NCBI GenBank assembly: GCA_019240525.1
Contig: JAFAYE010000001.1
Span: 903,300 to 967,299, forward strand
DNA: 64,000 bases
DNA from: Candidatus Eremiobacterota bacterium
Lineage (GTDB): Bacteria > Vulcanimicrobiota > Vulcanimicrobiia > Vulcanimicrobiales > Vulcanimicrobiaceae
Reading direction: 5' to 3'
The notes under the pieces were generated by a model. The model did not search any database. It had not been told where the DNA came from and saw only the letters and a list, made by a program, of their open reading frames with translations. This document shows positions 44,191 to 52,617 of the stretch, piece after piece (the stretch's first letter is position 1; every line of letters starts with the position of its first letter). Position numbers and translations under genes: made by a program.

Positions 44191-44466
44191 CTAGCTGCCG
44201 ATATCCCAGAGCAAGCCGAGGTCTTTCTTGGAGAGCGAGCGGAAGGCAATGAGCGTTTCGGTATTGAGAATGCCTTCGAGCGCCGCGACGCGCTCCGTCA
44301 CCAGATCGTTGAGGTCGTCGTGCCGCTTCATTCGAGCGATTGCTACCAGATCGAACGGACCGGCGACCGAATAGACCTCGGCGATCCCATCGACCGCTAG
44401 AAGATCGTCGGCAATGGTGCGCAATCGGGGACGCTCGACGTTCATAAGGATGAAAGCCGTGACCAT
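44191..44466 (-). CDS. Stand-alone Lrp/AsnC-type ligand-binding (RAM) domain protein
   Basis: 91 residues, a single dimeric alpha/beta-barrel domain with no DNA-binding helix-turn-helix. FILMNVERPRLRTIADDLL, VYSVAGPFDLVAIARM and NTETLIAFRSLSKKD match the AsnC C-terminal domain. Stand-alone versions bind amino acids or act as helpers to full Lrp proteins. Last gene of the BoxB-like/enoyl-CoA hydratase operon, 2 bp after the DUF1272 gene. Confidence 0.82.
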   Translation of the reverse strand: MVTAFILMNVERPRLRTIADDLLAVDGIAEVYSVAGPFDLVAIARMKRHDDLNDLVTERVAALEGILNTETLIAFRSLSKKDLGLLWDIGS

Positions 44467-44468
44467 GG

Positions 44469-44627
44469 CTAAGCGGCGCCCTGGGGAGACGCGAGCGTTC
44501 CGCCGCAGTTGGGGCATTGCCGATTCATAGCTTGCGCACAGGCAACGCAAAAGGTGCACTCGTACGAGCAAACGCGAATATCGCCCTCACGCAATGGGGC
44601 GCCACACCGTTCGCACGCCTCTTTCAT
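44469..44627 (-). CDS. DUF1272 small zinc-ribbon protein
   Basis: 52 residues. Eight cysteines in CERCGAPL, C20, YECTFCVAC and CPNCGG form a likely two-zinc (or treble-clef) module; the layout matches DUF1272. The ATG at 44627 shares one base with the TAA of the enoyl-CoA hydratase gene (TAATG). Function unknown; context ties it to aromatic acyl-CoA breakdown. Confidence 0.85.
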   Translation of the reverse strand: MKEACERCGAPLREGDIRVCSYECTFCVACAQAMNRQCPNCGGTLASPQGAA

Positions 44628-45484
44628 TACTTGTTTTTGAAGCGGGCGACGCGCTTTTCGTTGTAGGCTGCTAAGCCTTCTTTTGCGTCTTCGCTCTTGA
44701 AGAGGAGCGATTGCAACTCGCGTTCGAGGGCAAGCGCGTCTTGGAGCGGCAGCTCGGCGCCGGTTTGAACGCTGCGCTTGATGTGCCCGACGGCCATCGG
44801 AGCCTTGTTCGGCGAGCAGAATTGTCTCGCGTAGTTGGTGATCTGCTCGCGGAACTCTTCTGCGTTCCCTTCGAAGAGATCGTTGATCATTCCCCATTCA
44901 AACGCTTGCTCGTAGCTCACGGTCTTACCGCTCGTCATCATCTCGATCGCCCGGGATTTGCCGACCAGGCGCGCGAGTCGCTGCGTTCCGCCGGTGCCGG
45001 GCAGTACGCCGAGCGCGACTTCGGGAAGGCCAATTTTGCCGGCGTCTTTGCGCGCGATGCGCAAGTCGGCCGCCATCGCGATCTCCAGTCCGCCGCCGAC
45101 ACAGTGGCCGTTGAGCGCAGCGATCACGAGCTTCGGCGTCTGCTCCAAACGCGAGAGCGTTTCGTTTGCGTGCAGGCAGAACATATATTTGAACTCAGGC
45201 GTCACGGCGTTGAGCATTCCGATGTTCGCGCCGGCCGAGAAAAACTTCTCGCCCTTTCCGGCAAGCACGATAACTTCTACTTCGTGATCGAAACGTGCGT
45301 CTAAAATTGCTTCGTCGAGCTGGCGCATCATTTCGTGCGTGTACGTATTCGCCGGAGGGTCGTCCATCTCGATGAAGCCGATGTGACCGTCCTTCCAATA
45401 GTTGATCACGCGCTTACCGTCGAGCGGGCGCGCTTCGCGTCCGAACGGCGTCTGTTGGATAGCCCCGTTGACCGTCGTGCTCAT
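44627..45484 (-). CDS. Enoyl-CoA hydratase/isomerase family protein
   Basis: 285 residues from the ATG that overlaps the upstream epoxidase gene as ATGA. Crotonase fold with both catalytic glutamates: E134 in GHCVGGGLEIAMAADLR and E155 in IGLPEVALGVLPGTGGTQR; oxyanion-hole region FFSAGANIGML. It is about half the length of BoxC (benzoyl-CoA-dihydrodiol lyase) and looks like a single-domain PaaF/PaaG/EchA-type hydratase. Expected role is hydration or isomerisation of a ring-derived enoyl-CoA. Its immediate upstream partner is a BoxB-like epoxidase. Confidence 0.88.
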   Translation of the reverse strand: MSTTVNGAIQQTPFGREARPLDGKRVINYWKDGHIGFIEMDDPPANTYTHEMMRQLDEAILDARFDHEVEVIVLAGKGEKFFSAGANIGMLNAVTPEFKYMFCLHANETLSRLEQTPKLVIAALNGHCVGGGLEIAMAADLRIARKDAGKIGLPEVALGVLPGTGGTQRLARLVGKSRAIEMMTSGKTVSYEQAFEWGMINDLFEGNAEEFREQITNYARQFCSPNKAPMAVGHIKRSVQTGAELPLQDALALERELQSLLFKSEDAKEGLAAYNEKRVARFKNK

Positions 45485-46602
45485 GCTAGTTTTCCTTTTG
45501 GTGCGATCCAGTTGGGATCTTTGAAGTACTCTTTGAGTTCGATCTCGTCGGCTTGGGTCGGAAGAACGGTGGGTGCGTACGCTTCCCATTCGCCTTGAGT
45601 CAGCTTTCGCCCGTCGACGCTATACCGCTGACCCGAGTAATCTCCGATTTTTCGATTGAAACGCATATCCGGAAGATAAAACTTCGTCTCGCTGGAGTTG
45701 ACCTCGTTCACGCGTGCAACGGTCGCCAACGCTTCTTCGTAAAATTGCCGGCGGGCGCGCTCGTTGAGATGCTCCTTGTCGAGCTCGCCGGCGGCTTTAT
45801 CTTCATCGACTCGTCCTTTGATACCCCAGGCATACGCCCATTGTGCCGAGCCTGAATGATCGGTACCAAAGAGATCGAGCGACCCGGAGAACCACTTGTT
45901 GTAGTACTTCTGCTGGATCTCCACCGGAATGACTCCGGCCTTGGCGATGCGGCGCAGACCCGTGATGCCGGTCCCCATGTGAAACGATTCTTCGCGAAGC
46001 ATCGGCCCCATGGACGCGGCGAGAGGCGCGAAGCTTGAATGCGAGAGCATCGTGAGCTGAAACTTCCCATCACGATCCATAAAGTTTGTGTAGGCGAAGA
46101 AATCCAGCCAGTGCGTGACGTCGTCGTTGAAAGCATTGAGCAGACGGTTCTTCTTTCCGAAGGCGCGGCGCTCCAGCATCTTCTGTGCTTCGATCTTCCC
46201 CTCGCTGCCGAAGTGATCGACCATCAAGTGGCACATTTGATACCCGTGGCGCGTCTCTTCGACCATGATGCGCACCAGTGAGGCCAGATCGTATTCGGTG
46301 GGCGCGTTATTGACGAGAAATCGCTGTTGCTCGTTTGAAGCAAACTCGGTGTCGCCCTGGTAGACGACCATGTTCAGCACGGCGTCGCGCATGCGCTGAT
46401 CGGGAATTTCGCGCACCCGCTCCCATCGCCGATCCCCTTTGAAGTCGCCGAAGTAAATCTCGGGGGTGGGCAACTCTCCGTACTTAGCCTCGAAGCGATA
46501 GCCGGGCATAAATCGATCCATCAGCTCACGGTCGAGACCGATGTCCCGCCGCCAGTCGTCAAGCATCGAAACCCAGTCGTCAAAAGTCGAAATTCGGTTC
46601 AT
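45481..46602 (-). CDS. BoxB-like aryl-CoA epoxidase (diiron, PaaA/PaaC family)
   Basis: 373 residues. All six diiron ligands expected for BoxB/PaaA-type epoxidases are in place: E86 in QGDTEFAS, E116 and H119 in VEETRHGYQ, an Asp in MDRDGKF (D176), E205 and H208 in EESFHMGTG. Segments QGDTE, MDRDGKFQL, IKGRVDEDK and DMRFNRKIG closely resemble benzoyl-CoA 2,3-epoxidase BoxB as I recall it, but the protein is about 100 residues shorter. Such enzymes use O2 to epoxidise aromatic CoA thioesters. No reductase (BoxA/PaaE), CoA ligase or PaaBCD subunit gene is in the window. First gene of its operon, divergent from a PaaX regulator. Confidence 0.85.
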   Translation of the reverse strand: MNRISTFDDWVSMLDDWRRDIGLDRELMDRFMPGYRFEAKYGELPTPEIYFGDFKGDRRWERVREIPDQRMRDAVLNMVVYQGDTEFASNEQQRFLVNNAPTEYDLASLVRIMVEETRHGYQMCHLMVDHFGSEGKIEAQKMLERRAFGKKNRLLNAFNDDVTHWLDFFAYTNFMDRDGKFQLTMLSHSSFAPLAASMGPMLREESFHMGTGITGLRRIAKAGVIPVEIQQKYYNKWFSGSLDLFGTDHSGSAQWAYAWGIKGRVDEDKAAGELDKEHLNERARRQFYEEALATVARVNEVNSSETKFYLPDMRFNRKIGDYSGQRYSVDGRKLTQGEWEAYAPTVLPTQADEIELKEYFKDPNWIAPKGKLA

Positions 46603-46616
46603 ATCCTGCCTTATGT

Positions 46617-46654
46617 AACGGATTTTTGTCGAACGGATGGAATACCGTCATACT
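46617..46654 (+). promoter_or_regulatory. paaX promoter with candidate operator direct repeats
   Basis: A -35-like TTGTCG (46626-46631) and -10-like CATACT (46649-46654) are 17 bp apart and read toward paaX. Two AACGGAT direct repeats (46617-46623 and 46632-46638, 15-bp period) bracket the -35 and fit an operator, perhaps for PaaX itself. Transcription from here would begin near 46661, favouring the second ATG (46672) for paaX. Confidence 0.4.
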
Positions 46655-46656
46655 AG

Positions 46657-47505
46657 ATGGCAGCGGAGCGGATGTCAACCCTCGCTGGGCGCCCGGTTGC
46701 GCGTCCAAATTCCTTTATATTTACCCTCTACGGAGACATGGTCGCCCGCCTCTCGAGCGACGGGTCATTGCGGATCAGCGCCTTGATCCGCCTGATGGCG
46801 ACGTTCGGCGTTTCGGCCGCCGCGGTAAGGCAGGCCGTTTCCCGCATGACGCGGCAGGGATGGCTCGTCGCCCGGCGCGAGGGCAACCGGGCAGCGTACG
46901 GGGTGACCGACCGCGGATCCCAGCGAATCGTCGAGCTGAGCCCGCGGATTTATGGGCCGGTCATCGGGTGGGATGGTCGCTGGCGCCTGCTCTCCTACGC
47001 GATCGGGGAGGCCCATCGAAAGCGTCGCGAACGGCTTCGCAAAGAGCTGAGCGCTCTGGGTTGGGCCCCGCTCTCACCGTCGACGTGGATCTCACCGTCC
47101 GACACCTTGGGCGCGGCGCGCGATGCGGCGCGCGCCACCGGCACTCTCGACGCGGTGAATCTTTTCACGAGCGAGTATCGCGGACCGTTGAGCGACCGCC
47201 AACTGCTTGAACGCTGCTGGGACGTGGATGCAATTGCCGCGGCCTACCGCGAGTTCGTCGCCCGCTACGCCCCCTTGCTCGCGCAAGAACGCGCACGTCC
47301 CGGCTTTAGCGACGAGGAGGCGTTCGTTCAGCGCCTTTGGCTCGTGCACGACTATCGCCGATTCGTCTACCTCGATCCCGGACTACCCAGCGAGCTGCTG
47401 CCCGCACAGTGGCCGGGCACCGCCGCGGCAGCACTCTTTCGCGAACTCTACGCGGCGCTCGAGGTGCAATCACAACGCTACTTTCATCTTTGCGCGCAGC
47501 AATGA
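46657..47505 (+). CDS. paaX: PaaX-family phenylacetyl-CoA-type transcriptional repressor
   Basis: 282 residues from the ATG at 46657; an ATG five codons later (46672) is also plausible. Winged HTH at about 14-90 (FIFTLYGDMVAR, LIRLMATFGVSAAAVRQAVSR, MTRQGWLVARREGN), a central PaaX domain (WDGRWRLLSYAI) and a C-terminal region (LWLVHDYRRFVYLDPGLPSELLP) typical of the PaaX family. PaaX proteins repress aromatic-acid genes and release DNA on binding an aryl-CoA such as phenylacetyl-CoA. Divergent from the BoxB-like operon with 54 bp between starts. Confidence 0.9.
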   Translation: MAAERMSTLAGRPVARPNSFIFTLYGDMVARLSSDGSLRISALIRLMATFGVSAAAVRQAVSRMTRQGWLVARREGNRAAYGVTDRGSQRIVELSPRIYGPVIGWDGRWRLLSYAIGEAHRKRRERLRKELSALGWAPLSPSTWISPSDTLGAARDAARATGTLDAVNLFTSEYRGPLSDRQLLERCWDVDAIAAAYREFVARYAPLLAQERARPGFSDEEAFVQRLWLVHDYRRFVYLDPGLPSELLPAQWPGTAAAALFRELYAALEVQSQRYFHLCAQQ

Positions 47506-47543
47506 AACGGGTGCGACCGGCGCTGCGTCGAATCGAGACGGCC

Positions 47544-47942
47544 ATGCCCAAACGCCTGCTCTTTGCACTGGCCGTCGGCGCTCTTGCCGTCGCGGCGTGC
47601 CACAACGGAACGCCCAGCACAACACCAACGGTTCCCGCCACGTCACCGACGCCGAATCCTAAAATTACTATGGCGGCCGTTCAGGTGACGATCAACGGCA
47701 CCCCGGCCCCGCGGATTCCCGTCGAGATCTCGACGCCGAGGTCGACCGCGAGCCCTCGCCCCGGCACACCGTTCTTTACCAAGAACTCAGGCAAGAAAGG
47801 CTTCGCGCGGTTCAATCATCTCAAACCGAGCCAGACCTACTGCTGGGTTGCAATCTTTTCGCAAAGCTTTCGCTCGTCGTTTTGCGCCGACTGGCAGGAG
47901 TGGCAGAGCGGCACCATTCCGCTCGGCAGCCCCGGAAGCTAG
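47544..47942 (+). CDS. Small lipoprotein with an Ig-like/prealbumin-like domain
   Basis: 132 residues from the ATG at 47544, chosen because it gives a compact lipoprotein signal peptide (MPKRLLFALAVGALAVAAC, C19). An earlier ATG at 47502 overlaps the paaX stop as ATGA and would add 14 basic residues. The mature protein has a Thr/Pro linker and a beta-rich domain (VQVTINGTPAPRIPVEIS, then FARFNHLKPSQTYCWVAIF) with two cysteines. Function unknown. Its stop overlaps the next convergent gene's stop in the palindrome CTAG. Confidence 0.65.
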   Translation: MPKRLLFALAVGALAVAACHNGTPSTTPTVPATSPTPNPKITMAAVQVTINGTPAPRIPVEISTPRSTASPRPGTPFFTKNSGKKGFARFNHLKPSQTYCWVAIFSQSFRSSFCADWQEWQSGTIPLGSPGS

Positions 47943-48268
47943 ACTTCGTCGTCGTGCAGATGCAGATGACAGCCGTCTTCAGCTTCCAAGAGCACGTCGC
48001 GCGCTTCGGCGAGCACGGCGGTCGATAGCGGAGCGCTCGGCGGCTCGATCGTCCCTTCGGCCGCGAGAAAGTTTACTTCGCTCCAGTCTTCCCAGGTTTC
48101 GAGGGGTTCGTCGCTGGGTTCGGTGGGGAAGCGCACGCAGAAGCCTTGATCGATGTGCAGCCCGACAACCGTCACTTGAGTGCCGCGCGGAAGATAGGTT
48201 CCGTCTTTCCACAGCGTCCCATACGTGGTGCTGTAGACCGCGCCGATTTTGAGCGGTTCGTCCATCAT
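47939..48268 (-). CDS. Small acidic protein of unknown function
   Basis: 109 residues, strongly acidic. The N-terminal half (KIGAVYSTTYGTLWKDGTY, then RGTQVTVVGLHIDQGFCVRF) looks like a small SH3-like beta-barrel; the C-terminal half is Glu/Asp-rich and ends with HLHLHDDEV. No family recognised. It lies 5 bp after the aldehyde dehydrogenase gene on the same strand, so it is probably the last gene of that operon. Confidence 0.6.
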   Translation of the reverse strand: MMDEPLKIGAVYSTTYGTLWKDGTYLPRGTQVTVVGLHIDQGFCVRFPTEPSDEPLETWEDWSEVNFLAAEGTIEPPSAPLSTAVLAEARDVLLEAEDGCHLHLHDDEV

Positions 48269-48273
48269 CGTGC

Positions 48274-49767
48274 CTATACCCCGAACGGGTCCATCGGTTT
48301 CTCACCGATGTACGTAAGAACGCTCTTGGTTTCGGTATAGAGGCGCATCGTTTCCATCCCCAGTTCGCGGCCATACCCCGACTGTTTGTAGCCCCCGAAC
48401 GGAACGCCCGGGAAAACTGCATACGGCGTATTGATCGCGACCGATCCGCTCCGAATCGCGCGCGCAACCCGATTGGCCCGACCGATGCTCGTTGACCAGA
48501 CGCTTGCGGCAAGGCCGTACTCGCTCGCATTGGCCAGTGCGATCGCTTCCGCTTCGTCCTTGAATCGCACCAGGGTCGCGACCGGTCCGAAGATCTCCTC
48601 GCGCGCAATGCGATGCGAATTCTGCGCCTCGAACGCCGTCGGACTCCAGAAGGTGCCGCCCGCAAATGCTCCGCCGATATCGGCCGGCTTTCCGCCTAAG
48701 AGCGGCGTCGCACCCTCGGCAACACCGATCGCGCAGTACTCCCGAATTTTTTCGTACTGGTCGTGCAGCGTAATCGCGCCGATCTGCGACGAGGTATCTT
48801 CGGGATCGCCGACCCGCAGGCGCTTCGCCTTCTCGGCAAATGCGCTCGCGAAGCGATCGTAGATCCCCGCTTGCACCAAAATGCGTGACCGCGCTTCACA
48901 ACACTGGCCTGCATTATAGTAGACGCCGTAAAGCGCGCCGGCTACCGCCGCATCGAGATCGGCGTCATCGAAGACGACCGCCGGGGACTTGCCGCCGAGT
49001 TCGAGGGTTACTCGCTTGAGCGTTTGGGCCGCGGCTGCGGCAACCGTCTTTCCGGTGGTCGTCGAGCCGGTAAACGCGATCTTGTCGATGCCGGGATGTT
49101 CCACCATCCAGGCGCCGATCGGCCGCGTGGAACCCGTCAAGACGTTGAGCACGCCTTCGGGAACGCCGGCTTCGAGTGCAAGCTTTCCGAGTTCGATCGC
49201 GGTCAACGGTGTCACCGATGAGGGCTTGAGTACGATCGTGCAACCCGTGGCGAGCGCGGGCGCGACCTTCCACGTTGCAAGCAACAGCGGAAAATTCCAC
49301 GGCACGATGGCGCCAACCACACCGACCGGCTCGCGAACGGTATTGGCCAGATAGGTTGGAATCGGCGGCGGAAGCGTCTCGCCGTAATTTTTTGTCGCGG
49401 CGCCGGCGTAGAATTCGAACGTGTCGACGATTGCGCTCAGCTCGCCCTTCGCCGTCGAGATCGTCTTGCCGTTGTCGCGCACTTCGATCAATGCGAGATC
49501 CGCTGCGCGTTCTGCGATCAGTTGGGCGAGCTTGTACATGATTTTCGCGCGCCGCGACGCGGCCATTGTCGGCCAGCGGCCGGTATCGAAGGCGTGTCGT
49601 GCGGCGGCAACCGCTGCGTCGACGTCGTCGCGGGTCGCGTCGGCGACGTCGGCGATCTTCGCCCCGGTGGCTGGATTGCGGTCCTCGTAAACGCCGCCGT
49701 CGGACGCGTCGCGGTTGTGCGCTCCGATACAGAGTTGCGTCATCGCCGGCGTTGAGGTCGTGTTCAT
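48274..49767 (-). CDS. NAD(P)-dependent aldehyde dehydrogenase
   Basis: 497 residues from the ATG overlapping the thiolase stop (ATGA). Catalytic C290 in NAGQCCEARSR, general base E256 in TLELGGKSP, Asn157 in PWNFPLLLA and cofactor loop FTGSTTTGK are all present, with NTPYAVFPGVPFGGYKQSG near the end. Most like betaine/phenylacetaldehyde-type dehydrogenases. In this cluster it may oxidise the ring-opened semialdehyde (role of BoxD or the ALDH half of PaaZ), or an aldehyde precursor such as phenylacetaldehyde. Confidence 0.92.
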   Translation of the reverse strand: MNTTSTPAMTQLCIGAHNRDASDGGVYEDRNPATGAKIADVADATRDDVDAAVAAARHAFDTGRWPTMAASRRAKIMYKLAQLIAERAADLALIEVRDNGKTISTAKGELSAIVDTFEFYAGAATKNYGETLPPPIPTYLANTVREPVGVVGAIVPWNFPLLLATWKVAPALATGCTIVLKPSSVTPLTAIELGKLALEAGVPEGVLNVLTGSTRPIGAWMVEHPGIDKIAFTGSTTTGKTVAAAAAQTLKRVTLELGGKSPAVVFDDADLDAAVAGALYGVYYNAGQCCEARSRILVQAGIYDRFASAFAEKAKRLRVGDPEDTSSQIGAITLHDQYEKIREYCAIGVAEGATPLLGGKPADIGGAFAGGTFWSPTAFEAQNSHRIAREEIFGPVATLVRFKDEAEAIALANASEYGLAASVWSTSIGRANRVARAIRSGSVAINTPYAVFPGVPFGGYKQSGYGRELGMETMRLYTETKSVLTYIGEKPMDPFGV

Positions 49768-50978
49768 TGCGATGCCTTCAACTCCACTCGCTCGAATACC
49801 GTTGCGATCCCTTGCCCGACGCCGACGCACATCGTCGCGAGCCCGTACCGAGCGCTGCGTCGCCGCAGCTCGTGCAGTAAAGTGGTCGCGATCCGCGCGC
49901 CGCTCGCGCCGAGCGGATGACCGAGCGCTATCGCGCCGCCGTTGACGTTGGTGATCGCCGCGTCGAACTCCAGGTCTCGCATGCAGGCAATGGCTTGCGC
50001 GGCGAAAGCCTCGTTGATTTCAATGAGGTCGAGCTGCCCGATCTCCAGACCCAGACGACGCAACACTTTGCGGGTTGCCGGAATCGGCCCCAAGCCCATG
50101 ACGTCGGGCGCCACGCCGGCCGACGCGCTGCCGACGTAACGGGCCATGGGCGTCAGCCGCAGCGCGCGCGCGCGTTGCGCTTCGCACAAGAGCAATGCCG
50201 ATGCGCCGTCGTTGATCCCCGATGAGTTTCCCGCCGTCACGGTTCCCCCGCGCGCGAACGCCGGCTCGAGCGCCGCCAGCGCTTCGATTGACGACTGCGG
50301 GCGCGGGTGTTCGTCACGCGAAACGCGCGCGATCGCACCGCGGCCGTCGCGCACCGGAACGGCAACGATCTCGTCATCGAAGGCGCCGCGTTCCATCGCC
50401 GTCTTCCATTTTACTTGCGATTCGAGCGCAAAGCGGTCTTGCTCGAGGCGCGTGATGCCATACTGCTGAGCAACTCTCTCCGCCGTCTCGCCAAGCGAAA
50501 TCGTCCATTCCGCCGGCATCGCCGCGTTGACCATCCGCCAACCGAGCACGGTGTCGAAAAGCTGCTGTTTGCGACCGAATGCGAGATCACTCTTCGGAAG
50601 AACGTAGGGCGCGCGCGTCATCGATTCGACGCCGCCGGCGATCATTACGTCGCCCTCACCGAAGGCGATCGCTTGCGCCGCCGAGTTGATTGCCTGCAGG
50701 CTCGAGCCGCAGAGCCGGTTGATCGTCGTGCCCGCAACCGAAAGCGGCAGATTCGCGAGCAGGACGGCCATGCGCGCGACATTCCGATTGTCTTCGCCGC
50801 TCTGATTCGCCGCTCCGAAATAAACGTCGTCCACGACCTCGGCGGGCACGCCGGTGCGCTCGACGATCGCGCTAAGGACGAGCGCTGCGAGATCGTCGGG
50901 ACGGACGCCCGCGAACGCACCGCCGAACCGCCCGATTGGAGTGCGTAGTGCGTCGATGACCCAAACCTCGCGACTCAT
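49764..50978 (-). CDS. Acetyl-CoA acyltransferase (PaaJ/PcaF-like thiolase)
   Basis: 404 residues. Nucleophile C90 in NRLCGSSLQA, EDNRNVARMAVLLANLP (62-78), NEAFAAQA, the GHPLGASGAR histidine and the final cysteine in MCVGVGQG. The EDNRNVARMA segment is typical of beta-ketoadipyl-CoA thiolases (PcaF/PaaJ). Expected to cleave the 3-oxoacyl-CoA left after ring opening, giving acetyl-CoA plus a shorter acyl-CoA. Coupled by 4-bp overlaps to both neighbours. Confidence 0.93.
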   Translation of the reverse strand: MSREVWVIDALRTPIGRFGGAFAGVRPDDLAALVLSAIVERTGVPAEVVDDVYFGAANQSGEDNRNVARMAVLLANLPLSVAGTTINRLCGSSLQAINSAAQAIAFGEGDVMIAGGVESMTRAPYVLPKSDLAFGRKQQLFDTVLGWRMVNAAMPAEWTISLGETAERVAQQYGITRLEQDRFALESQVKWKTAMERGAFDDEIVAVPVRDGRGAIARVSRDEHPRPQSSIEALAALEPAFARGGTVTAGNSSGINDGASALLLCEAQRARALRLTPMARYVGSASAGVAPDVMGLGPIPATRKVLRRLGLEIGQLDLIEINEAFAAQAIACMRDLEFDAAITNVNGGAIALGHPLGASGARIATTLLHELRRRSARYGLATMCVGVGQGIATVFERVELKASQ

Positions 50979-52564
50979 TCCAATGCTTCCTCTGGCGCAG
51001 CCTCAACGACATCGAGCATCCACAGCGCCCGGTGCGGCGCAAATGCTTCGCCCTCCGACTCTGCGAGCCGCTTCAAGATTCGAGCGATGCGCGCGCCTCC
51101 GACTTCCCTTCCCAACGCAATCGGCCCCGTAGGATAGTTCGCGCCAAGCTGCATTGCCGTATCGACATCGTCGGGAACGGCGACGTCCTCAGCAACCGCG
51201 ACGATCGCTTCGTTGACAACGCTGCCAATGGTTCGGCCGAGAAAGAGTCCCGGCACATCATCGAGGAGGACCACGCCCTTGCCAAGCTCGCCGAAGAGCT
51301 CTTGCGCGAGTTCCAACGCATCGTCGGAAACAGACTCAGAATCGACGATCTCAACGATCTGCTGCATCGCGAGCGAGCCGAGCACTCCATAGCCGACGAG
51401 CCGCTGCGGATGGCGCGCGCGCCGCGCGCTCGCCTCCACATCGGTGGAATACGCATCGACGAAAACCACGCATTCTGGGCCGAGACGCGCCTCGAGCTCG
51501 GTAATAAACTCGCCGCGATCGCGAGCGCCATCGCCACCGCCCGCGTCGACGGCGATCGTTGCATCGGGCGAAAGACCGTCGAGGAAGTCATCGTTAACGA
51601 CCCGCTGTACGACCGCATACCGCTGCTCGAGTAGCTCCGCCAGCTCGTCGGCTCGCACTCCGAAGCCGACGACCGCCACGATCTCATCATCATTCCGATC
51701 GCTAGCCGTGGGGTGCACCGCGGGTTCGAACCGCTCGAGCTTTGCGTCTCCATACGAATAAAAACCAGCGCCGCTCTTTCGCCCGAGCAAGCCTTGTGCT
51801 ACCATTTGGCGCTGCAGCTCGACCGGAGCAAATCGCTCCGCGCCGGTGCGGGCATAGAGCGACTCGGTCGTCGCGAGATTGACGTCGAGACCGATCAGAT
51901 CCATCAGCTCGAATGGCCCCATGCGAAAGCCAATACCGCGCGCTAACGCGTCGAGCTCCGCTGCCGATGCGACGCCGTCCTCGAGGGCGCGCAATGCCTG
52001 CAAGTAGTACGGACGCGCGATACGATTGACAATAAAGCCGGGCGTGTCCGCGGCCAGGACTGCCGTCTTGCCCATCTTCGCGACTGCTTCGTATGCCCGC
52101 TCGAGTGTCTCGTCGCTGGTCTGCGGCCCAGCGACGACCTCGATCAGTTGCATTCGCGTCGGCGGATTGAAAAAGTGGAGGCCCACGACCCGCGCCGGAT
52201 TCGTCACCACGTCGGCGAGATCGGCCACCGCGAGCGACGACGTGTTGGTGGCAATCAATGCATCGGGCGAGAGCTCCGCATCGAGCTCCGTGAAGACGTT
52301 GCGCTTGAGCTCGAAGCGTTCCGGAACCGCCTCGATGGCCAAGTCCACATCGCCGCTCGGGCCAATCGCGTCGCGCCAACGGATGCGGTCGAGTGCCGAC
52401 CCATCGCCGCTGCGCGCAGCTTCGCGCTGCAACGAAGCAATGGCCCGCTCTCGCGCCCCAGCATCGGGCTCGACGATCTCGACGTCGTAAGCAGCGCGAG
52501 CAGCCACGAATCCAATGCCCGCGCCCATGGTTCCGCCGCCCACGACTAAGAGCCGTTCGCTCAT
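50975..52564 (-). CDS. 3-hydroxyacyl-CoA dehydrogenase (PaaH-like, two-module)
   Basis: 529 residues. N-terminal Rossmann fold with VVGGGTMGAGIGF (7-19), AIEAVPERFELK, NTSSLAVADLA and HFFNPPTRMQLIEVV; then a first C-terminal 3HCDH domain (TPGFIVNRIARPYYLQALR). After about residue 300 comes a second Rossmann-like region and another 3HCDH C-terminal helix bundle (ending about 515), as in PaaH/FadB2-type fused dehydrogenases. Oxidises 3-hydroxyacyl-CoA with NAD+. First gene of the operon with thiolase, ALDH and the small acidic protein. Confidence 0.92.
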   Translation of the reverse strand: MSERLLVVGGGTMGAGIGFVAARAAYDVEIVEPDAGARERAIASLQREAARSGDGSALDRIRWRDAIGPSGDVDLAIEAVPERFELKRNVFTELDAELSPDALIATNTSSLAVADLADVVTNPARVVGLHFFNPPTRMQLIEVVAGPQTSDETLERAYEAVAKMGKTAVLAADTPGFIVNRIARPYYLQALRALEDGVASAAELDALARGIGFRMGPFELMDLIGLDVNLATTESLYARTGAERFAPVELQRQMVAQGLLGRKSGAGFYSYGDAKLERFEPAVHPTASDRNDDEIVAVVGFGVRADELAELLEQRYAVVQRVVNDDFLDGLSPDATIAVDAGGGDGARDRGEFITELEARLGPECVVFVDAYSTDVEASARRARHPQRLVGYGVLGSLAMQQIVEIVDSESVSDDALELAQELFGELGKGVVLLDDVPGLFLGRTIGSVVNEAIVAVAEDVAVPDDVDTAMQLGANYPTGPIALGREVGGARIARILKRLAESEGEAFAPHRALWMLDVVEAAPEEALE

Positions 52565-52617
52565 CGGCGGGCTCTTCGCGAGAGGAGCTGCAAACGCTTC
52601 GCCATAGTGGTGGCGAC

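Follow-up and report, generated by a model that had tools for sequence, protein, structure and literature searches.

A probable compact Box-type epoxidase and ring-hydrolase module for aryl-CoA degradation in Candidatus Eremiobacterota

Locus and gene content

The window, a 64,000-nucleotide stretch of contig 1 (positions 903300-967299) from a 2.8 Mb, 97% complete Candidatus Eremiobacterota genome, carries a gene module built around a short BoxB-like di-iron protein (short BoxB) and a single-domain crotonase. The genomes closest to it are Candidatus Eremiobacterota metagenome-assembled genomes. Two systems that open aromatic rings aerobically as CoA thioesters with a di-iron epoxidase are known, Box and Paa. 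The original prediction, made from the sequence alone, read the module as a Paa/Box hybrid for ring epoxidation of an unassigned aryl-CoA substrate. The genes that it named are intact frames at the coordinates it gave, and their Pfam and NCBIfam identities agree:

44627-45484, minus strand: single-domain crotonase, 285 aa, proposed ring-opening hydrolase (BoxC N-terminal-domain signature; pairing with short BoxB)
45481-46602, minus strand: short BoxB (373 aa), a BoxB-like di-iron protein and putative epoxidase of aryl-CoA rings (PF05138; TIGR03225 218.1 bits)
46657-47505, plus strand: PaaX-like repressor, divergent from the epoxidase gene (PF07848, PF20803, PF08223; TIGR02277 227.2 bits, cut-off 264.55)
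48274-49770, minus strand: aldehyde dehydrogenase (ALDH), proposed ring-cleavage semialdehyde dehydrogenase (PF00171)
49764-50978, minus strand: PaaJ/PcaF-like 3-oxoadipyl-CoA thiolase (NF006551 559 bits, cut-off 605; TIGR02430 545 bits, cut-off 597)
50975-52570, minus strand: PaaH-like 3-hydroxyacyl-CoA dehydrogenase (PF02737 and PF00725, two stretches each; TIGR02279 359 bits, cut-off 669)

The crotonase gene overlaps the epoxidase gene by 4 bases. Among 54 related loci compared, the order PaaH-PaaJ-ALDH-(PaaX)-BoxB-like-crotonase is kept with few changes in about 50 Eremiobacterota loci, so the arrangement is not a product of chance. The module is a phylum-wide unit, not a recent chimera. 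Its best-conserved members across relatives are short BoxB (68-91% identity) and the crotonase (77-94%); PaaX, PaaH and PaaJ are lower. PaaX lies downstream or outside the fetched stretch in some deep lineages, and a TonB-dependent-receptor-like gene, one of several extras, stands between ALDH and PaaX in six loci.

ALDH, PaaH and PaaJ are lower-pathway enzymes shared by the Box and Paa routes. For the thiolase, 3-oxoadipyl-CoA thiolase models are the best of 46 matches, yet its 545 bits fall under the 597-bit equivalog cut-off. BADH, HpaE and StyD models are among the closest to the ALDH, and no NCBIfam equivalog cut-off was reached among the matches listed. The PaaX-like protein has N, M and C domains that all score over the Pfam cut-off, and it is below the TIGR02277 equivalog cut-off.

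Epoxidase

Short BoxB forms a lineage of its own and belongs to neither BoxB nor PaaA. At 373 aa it is about 100 residues shorter than the 12 full-length BoxB rows (472-490 aa), as had been predicted. It fails equivalog membership in BoxB (TIGR03225, 218.1 bits against a cut-off of 499.1) and in PaaA (TIGR02156, 38.7 bits against 280), and its best PDB match is BoxB 3PER (E 2.7e-53). A phylogeny had been proposed as a check. In the maximum-likelihood tree the 12 full-length BoxB proteins form one 100/100 clade that excludes the window protein, the 31 Eremiobacterota short forms make up another, and short forms from other lineages attach near the base of both. The approximately unbiased (AU) test rejects forcing the window protein into the BoxB clade (p 0.022). 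Monophyly of the short forms is compatible with the AU test (p 0.18) but not demonstrated, and BoxB may therefore have arisen from a short stock. In four genomes (G056, G079, G080, G081) the short pair coexists with full-length BoxB; the short form is thus more than a mere replacement for the longer one.

Active-site residues were compared using BoxB roles from PMC5489048 and an alignment of 42 short rows. The six di-iron ligands of BoxB (E120, E150, H153, D211, E240 and H243; PMC5489048) are invariant in all 42, which bears out the BoxB ligand set claimed for this oxygenase. The segments QGDTE, MDRDGKF and RFNRKIG are also present as described, and the first two match BoxB but for one residue. 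Among the substrate-contact residues of BoxB (Q116, T119, S123, F193, F203, F206 and T210; PMC5489048), Gln116, Thr119, Ser123 and Phe193 are invariant (42/42), and F203 is kept in the window protein. Gln116 of BoxB hydrogen-bonds benzoyl-CoA (PMC5489048); PaaA carries His at this position.

A third, more distant group of 413-441 aa proteins (about 29% identity) was found at L100:9932-11236, L101:9506-10747 and L102:9079-10404, in genomes that hold the crotonase too. ASTEFGS replaces GDTEFAS in this group, and all six iron ligands and Gln116 are kept.

Pairing across genomes

In 290 genomes, BoxB-family matches were surveyed against crotonase orthologues at E <= 1e-60. Short BoxB and the crotonase occur together in 83 genomes, short BoxB alone in 4, the crotonase alone in 1 and neither in 202. 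The genomes with short BoxB alone are G035 and G065 (near contig ends), G112 and G126 (weak match). Because the genomes are related, the extreme Fisher values count for less than the table from outside the phylum (both 8, short BoxB alone 1, crotonase alone 0, neither 160) and the unlinked pairs, such as those in G106 and G118, where the two genes lie about 80 kb apart on one contig. Twelve genomes with full-length BoxB over the cut-off have no short form, and none of them has the crotonase. Overall, most of the Eremiobacterota members examined have the pair, and so do eight lineages at family level in other phyla.

In further lineages the two genes adjoin or lie near each other (L086, L090, L091, L092 and L096), and L092 also holds ALDH, PaaJ-like and PaaH-like genes. 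Some short BoxB copies sit among unrelated neighbours (L087, L093-L095). There is a reason to expect tight pairing, since BoxC co-purifies with BoxB and relieves its inhibition (PMC4498308).

Crotonase partner

The top-scoring models for the crotonase are generic hydratases, all below cut-off among the matches listed, and the oxepin-CoA hydrolase model NF046063 gives 119 bits (cut-off 300). Its motif FFSAGANIxML...K..FCLHANET..E can be set beside the BoxC example FCSGANIFML...K..FCKFTNET..E. In the alignment, the crotonase and four BoxC N-terminal domains share the signature F-S/C-x-GANIxML...K..FC..xNET..E, which PaaF, PaaG and eleven other compared crotonases lack. A review places the active centre of BoxC in the N-terminal domain only, with two Glu residues positioned as in PaaF (PMC4498308); both catalytic-type Glu positions are retained in the window crotonase. 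The prediction of a single-domain hydratase thus stands as to size (285 aa, one domain, against about 550 residues for two-domain BoxC), but the signature makes the protein Box-type. We propose that it is the equivalent of the catalytic N-terminal half of BoxC, as its conserved residues suggest.

The best solved relative is PDB 2PPY (242 bits), which we take to be from Geobacillus. Its PDB description is simply that of an enoyl-CoA hydratase, and it has the FC..xNET motif of the window crotonase. The nearest named plasmid relatives, from Haladaptatus (45%) and Thermus (41%), both adjoin PaaABC-type oxygenase genes and are without the FC..NET motif.

PaaA-type/PaaC-type clusters on haloarchaeal and Thermus plasmids (L109:6025-8321, L126:2996-5254, L125:9826-12235) have no PaaE gene nearby. 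All three include a crotonase, those of Thermus and Haladaptatus include an ALDH, and both haloarchaeal clusters carry a gene for a small 2Fe-2S protein.

Electron donor and CoA ligases

The original prediction noted that the standard partners are absent from the window. This is largely true genome-wide: a single PF05138 protein is present, hence no PaaC, and PaaE, PaaK and BoxA over cut-off are missing as well; no separate genome search was made for PaaB. PaaK was rejected as the entry enzyme; the family search found none in the window genome, and it occurs in only 6 of the 87 short-BoxB genomes. A ferredoxin reductase beside the pair in L090 was rejected as a partner, because the window genome has only a weak match to it (28%; 415 aa, L128, flanked by peptidase-like and dehydratase-like genes).

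Five AMP-forming ligase frames were found in the window genome: an acetate-CoA ligase, one like a non-ribosomal peptide synthetase, two of fatty-acid/alicyclic types and one of the benzoate-CoA-ligase family. None is a benzoate-CoA ligase over the cut-off of 375 bits, the family member scoring 332. This protein was set aside as the entry enzyme, since its gene lies about 6-9 kb from a flavin monooxygenase gene and about 755 kb from the module. It probably serves a 2-aminobenzoyl-CoA route because it is clustered with that monooxygenase, an acyl-CoA dehydrogenase and a crotonase. In genus g5, by comparison, the pair is followed by a benzoate-CoA-ligase-family gene (584 bits, cut-off 375) and one with a CoA-transferase domain (L049). 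A strong ligase is present in 15 of 16 full-length BoxB genomes.

The apparent 2-aminobenzoyl-CoA cluster lies on contig 1 at about 192.9-202.5 kb (L116:14854-18407 and L117:1574-4557). It encodes the benzoate-CoA-ligase-family protein, the acyl-CoA dehydrogenase, the crotonase, a short-chain dehydrogenase/reductase and a 752-aa flavin monooxygenase/reductase. The last is of the 2-aminobenzoyl/salicylyl-CoA type (NF006101 1257 bits, cut-off 1078), which is found in 58 of the 290 genomes, mostly Eremiobacterota.

Full-length BoxB clusters (L103, L104, L105) contain BoxC and benzoate-CoA ligase with no BoxA detected alongside. A 1015-aa frame near 979.8 kb of contig 1 (L115:91-3135) may be a fusion of AroA (3-phosphoshikimate 1-carboxyvinyltransferase, residues 23-434) with an acyl-CoA ligase nearest to cyclohexanecarboxylate-CoA ligase (465-999).

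Proposed function

We consider it probable, though well short of certain, that the module is a compact Box-type epoxidase and ring hydrolase with an exit through 3-oxoadipyl-CoA-type beta-oxidation. Short BoxB would convert an aryl-CoA, with O2 and two electrons, to a ring epoxide, and the crotonase would hydrolyse the epoxide or oxepin and open the ring. The ALDH would oxidize the semialdehyde from ring opening, to be followed by PaaH-like oxidation and PaaJ-like thiolysis of the 3-oxoadipyl-CoA type. The PaaX-like repressor would govern the operon from a divergent promoter. The original prediction is supported in part: the epoxidase falls outside BoxB and PaaA, the genome is without the usual partner genes and the aryl-CoA substrate is unassigned, the outcomes under which the prediction was to stand. 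The view of the module as a hybrid is not supported: oxygenase and crotonase are both Box-type, the lower-pathway enzymes are common to both systems, and PaaX is a lineage-specific regulator, since in other phyla the pair of enzymes has different regulators, or none, nearby.

Several results weigh against this reading. At the active site, Phe206 is Tyr in 41 of the 42 short rows, including all 31 from Eremiobacterota, and Thr210 is Met in all 31 Eremiobacterota rows and Ile or Val elsewhere, with one Gln. With both residues substituted, the ring pocket differs from that of BoxB. A structure prediction for the epoxidase from 36 Eremiobacterota sequences has a mean predicted local distance difference test score (pLDDT) of 54, and the tree joins the crotonase with BoxC N-terminal domains at only moderate support (82/91). 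No BoxA over cut-off was found in the 290 genomes, including those with full-length BoxB, where profile matches were mostly short ferredoxin-like and reductase-domain hits below cut-off. Nor was PaaE or another recognisable dedicated reductase found in the window genome, whose sole reductase of the ferredoxin-NADP reductase (FNR) type is PyrK, a dihydroorotate dehydrogenase subunit. A benzoate-CoA-ligase-family (TIGR02262) match at E <= 1e-80 is absent from 24 of the 87 short-BoxB genomes, and most of the 87 are without a strong benzoate-CoA ligase, which is odd for a benzoyl-CoA route. From the residues kept and changed, the most likely substrate would be aroyl-CoA-like, with the carbonyl directly on the ring and a different ring environment.

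A one-subunit phenylacetyl-CoA route is unlikely. Here short BoxB would form 1,2-epoxyphenylacetyl-CoA, the crotonase would be an oxepin-CoA hydrolase, and phenylacetyl-CoA would come from phenylpyruvate and not by PaaK. The PaaX-like, PaaH-like and PaaJ-like genes fit such a route, as do the PaaABC-type neighbours of the Thermus and Haladaptatus crotonases and a second crotonase in L092 with 39% identity to PaaG. However, the oxygenase retains Gln116 of BoxB where PaaA has His, the crotonase has a BoxC-like signature and a poor NF046063 score (119 against 300), PaaK is rare in short-BoxB genomes (6/87), and the window module is without a PaaG-type isomerase. It is still less likely that short BoxB is just a divergent benzoyl-CoA epoxidase that takes benzoyl-CoA through the standard Box reaction, served by a generic reductase. 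The conserved iron ligands and benzoyl-carbonyl contact, the BoxC-like partner and the ligase-family gene beside the pair in genus g5 would all suit it, and full-length BoxB genomes likewise have no BoxA over cut-off. Against these stand the two changed ring-contact residues, the window genome's want of a benzoate-CoA ligase over cut-off, and the four genomes with both forms, which suggest different jobs.

Least probable, in our view, is that the protein epoxidises no aromatic ring and has another acyl-CoA (e.g. alicyclic or conjugated) as its substrate, in a housekeeping role that would explain its high conservation. Its mean column identity across the class is unusually high (86%), many hosts have no dedicated aryl-CoA ligase, and some copies lie among unrelated neighbours. 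Yet it is closely homologous to an aromatic epoxidase, down to the substrate-contact Gln, its neighbours fit the lower pathway of ring cleavage, and its partner is BoxC-like. We suggest tentatively, and with more doubt than conviction, that the pair is a third, ancient class of aerobic aryl-CoA ring opening in several phyla, with its own substrate, often no dedicated ligase, and an electron donor other than BoxA or PaaE. Full-length Box might then descend from it, with BoxB having grown longer and BoxC having gained a second crotonase domain by fusion.

Comparison with known systems

The module would work like Box, yet it lies outside BoxB and two-domain BoxC: it is a conserved compact Box relative. 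It shares with Box the di-iron ligands, the benzoyl-carbonyl Gln, a crotonase with the BoxC catalytic signature, a separate ALDH and a beta-oxidation exit. It differs in an epoxidase that is about 100 residues shorter, of separate lineage and with two ring-contact substitutions, in a crotonase of one domain where BoxC has two, in its PaaX-like regulator, and in a genome without BoxA or benzoate-CoA ligase over cut-off. With Paa (PaaABCDE, PaaG, PaaZ, PaaF, PaaH, PaaJ, PaaK, PaaX) it has in common the PaaX-like, PaaH-like and PaaJ-like proteins and a PF05138 oxygenase. Unlike Paa, the window genome has one PF05138 gene in place of a PaaA/PaaC pair and neither a PaaE-type reductase nor PaaK; the module has no fused PaaZ, and its oxygenase falls on the BoxB side of the tree. 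The 2-aminobenzoyl-CoA monooxygenase/reductase route elsewhere in the genome (L116/L117) is likewise an aerobic CoA-thioester route for aromatics, but it uses a flavoprotein instead of a di-iron enzyme and has its own ligase, acyl-CoA dehydrogenase and crotonase nearby.

A search of open-licence papers turned up no account of a short BoxB, nor of aromatic degradation by Eremiobacterota by way of it; one soil study mentions benzoyl-CoA oxidation genes in general terms. Current models miss short BoxB (218 bits against a 499-bit cut-off) or label its partner a generic enoyl-CoA hydratase. The pair would broaden the definition of aromatic-degradation capacity in metagenomes, its host phylum being widespread in soil and nearly uncultured. 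As a two-protein system it could be a simple model for the hand-over of a toxic epoxide from oxygenase to hydrolase, and it is a possible precursor of BoxB/BoxC.

Regulation and neighbouring genes

Features of the intergenic region and of the downstream end are:

46603-46678, minus strand: epoxidase-operon promoter with a candidate operator (TTGACA at 46673-46678, 17-base spacer, -10-like TAGTAT)
46645-46652 and 46614-46621, minus strand: imperfect inverted repeat, TATGACGG / CCGTTACA, overlapping the -10 region
44472-44627, minus strand: DUF1272 small zinc-ribbon-like protein, downstream of the crotonase (PF06906 60.5 bits)
44191-44571, minus strand: stand-alone Lrp/AsnC ligand-binding domain (PF01037 50.9 bits)

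The promoter and inverted repeat occur at the same position in most relatives compared, with sequence partly kept (TATAACGG ... CCGTTATA in L009). The repeat is a candidate binding site for PaaX. Because the epoxidase promoter and the annotated PaaX start overlap, the true start of PaaX may lie further in.

The DUF1272 gene, missed by the original prediction, sits between the hydratase and AsnC-domain genes and is found in few relatives only. The AsnC-domain protein has no helix-turn-helix; its orthologue cluster spans 21 loci, and about 20 relatives have its gene linked either to the module or to cysK.

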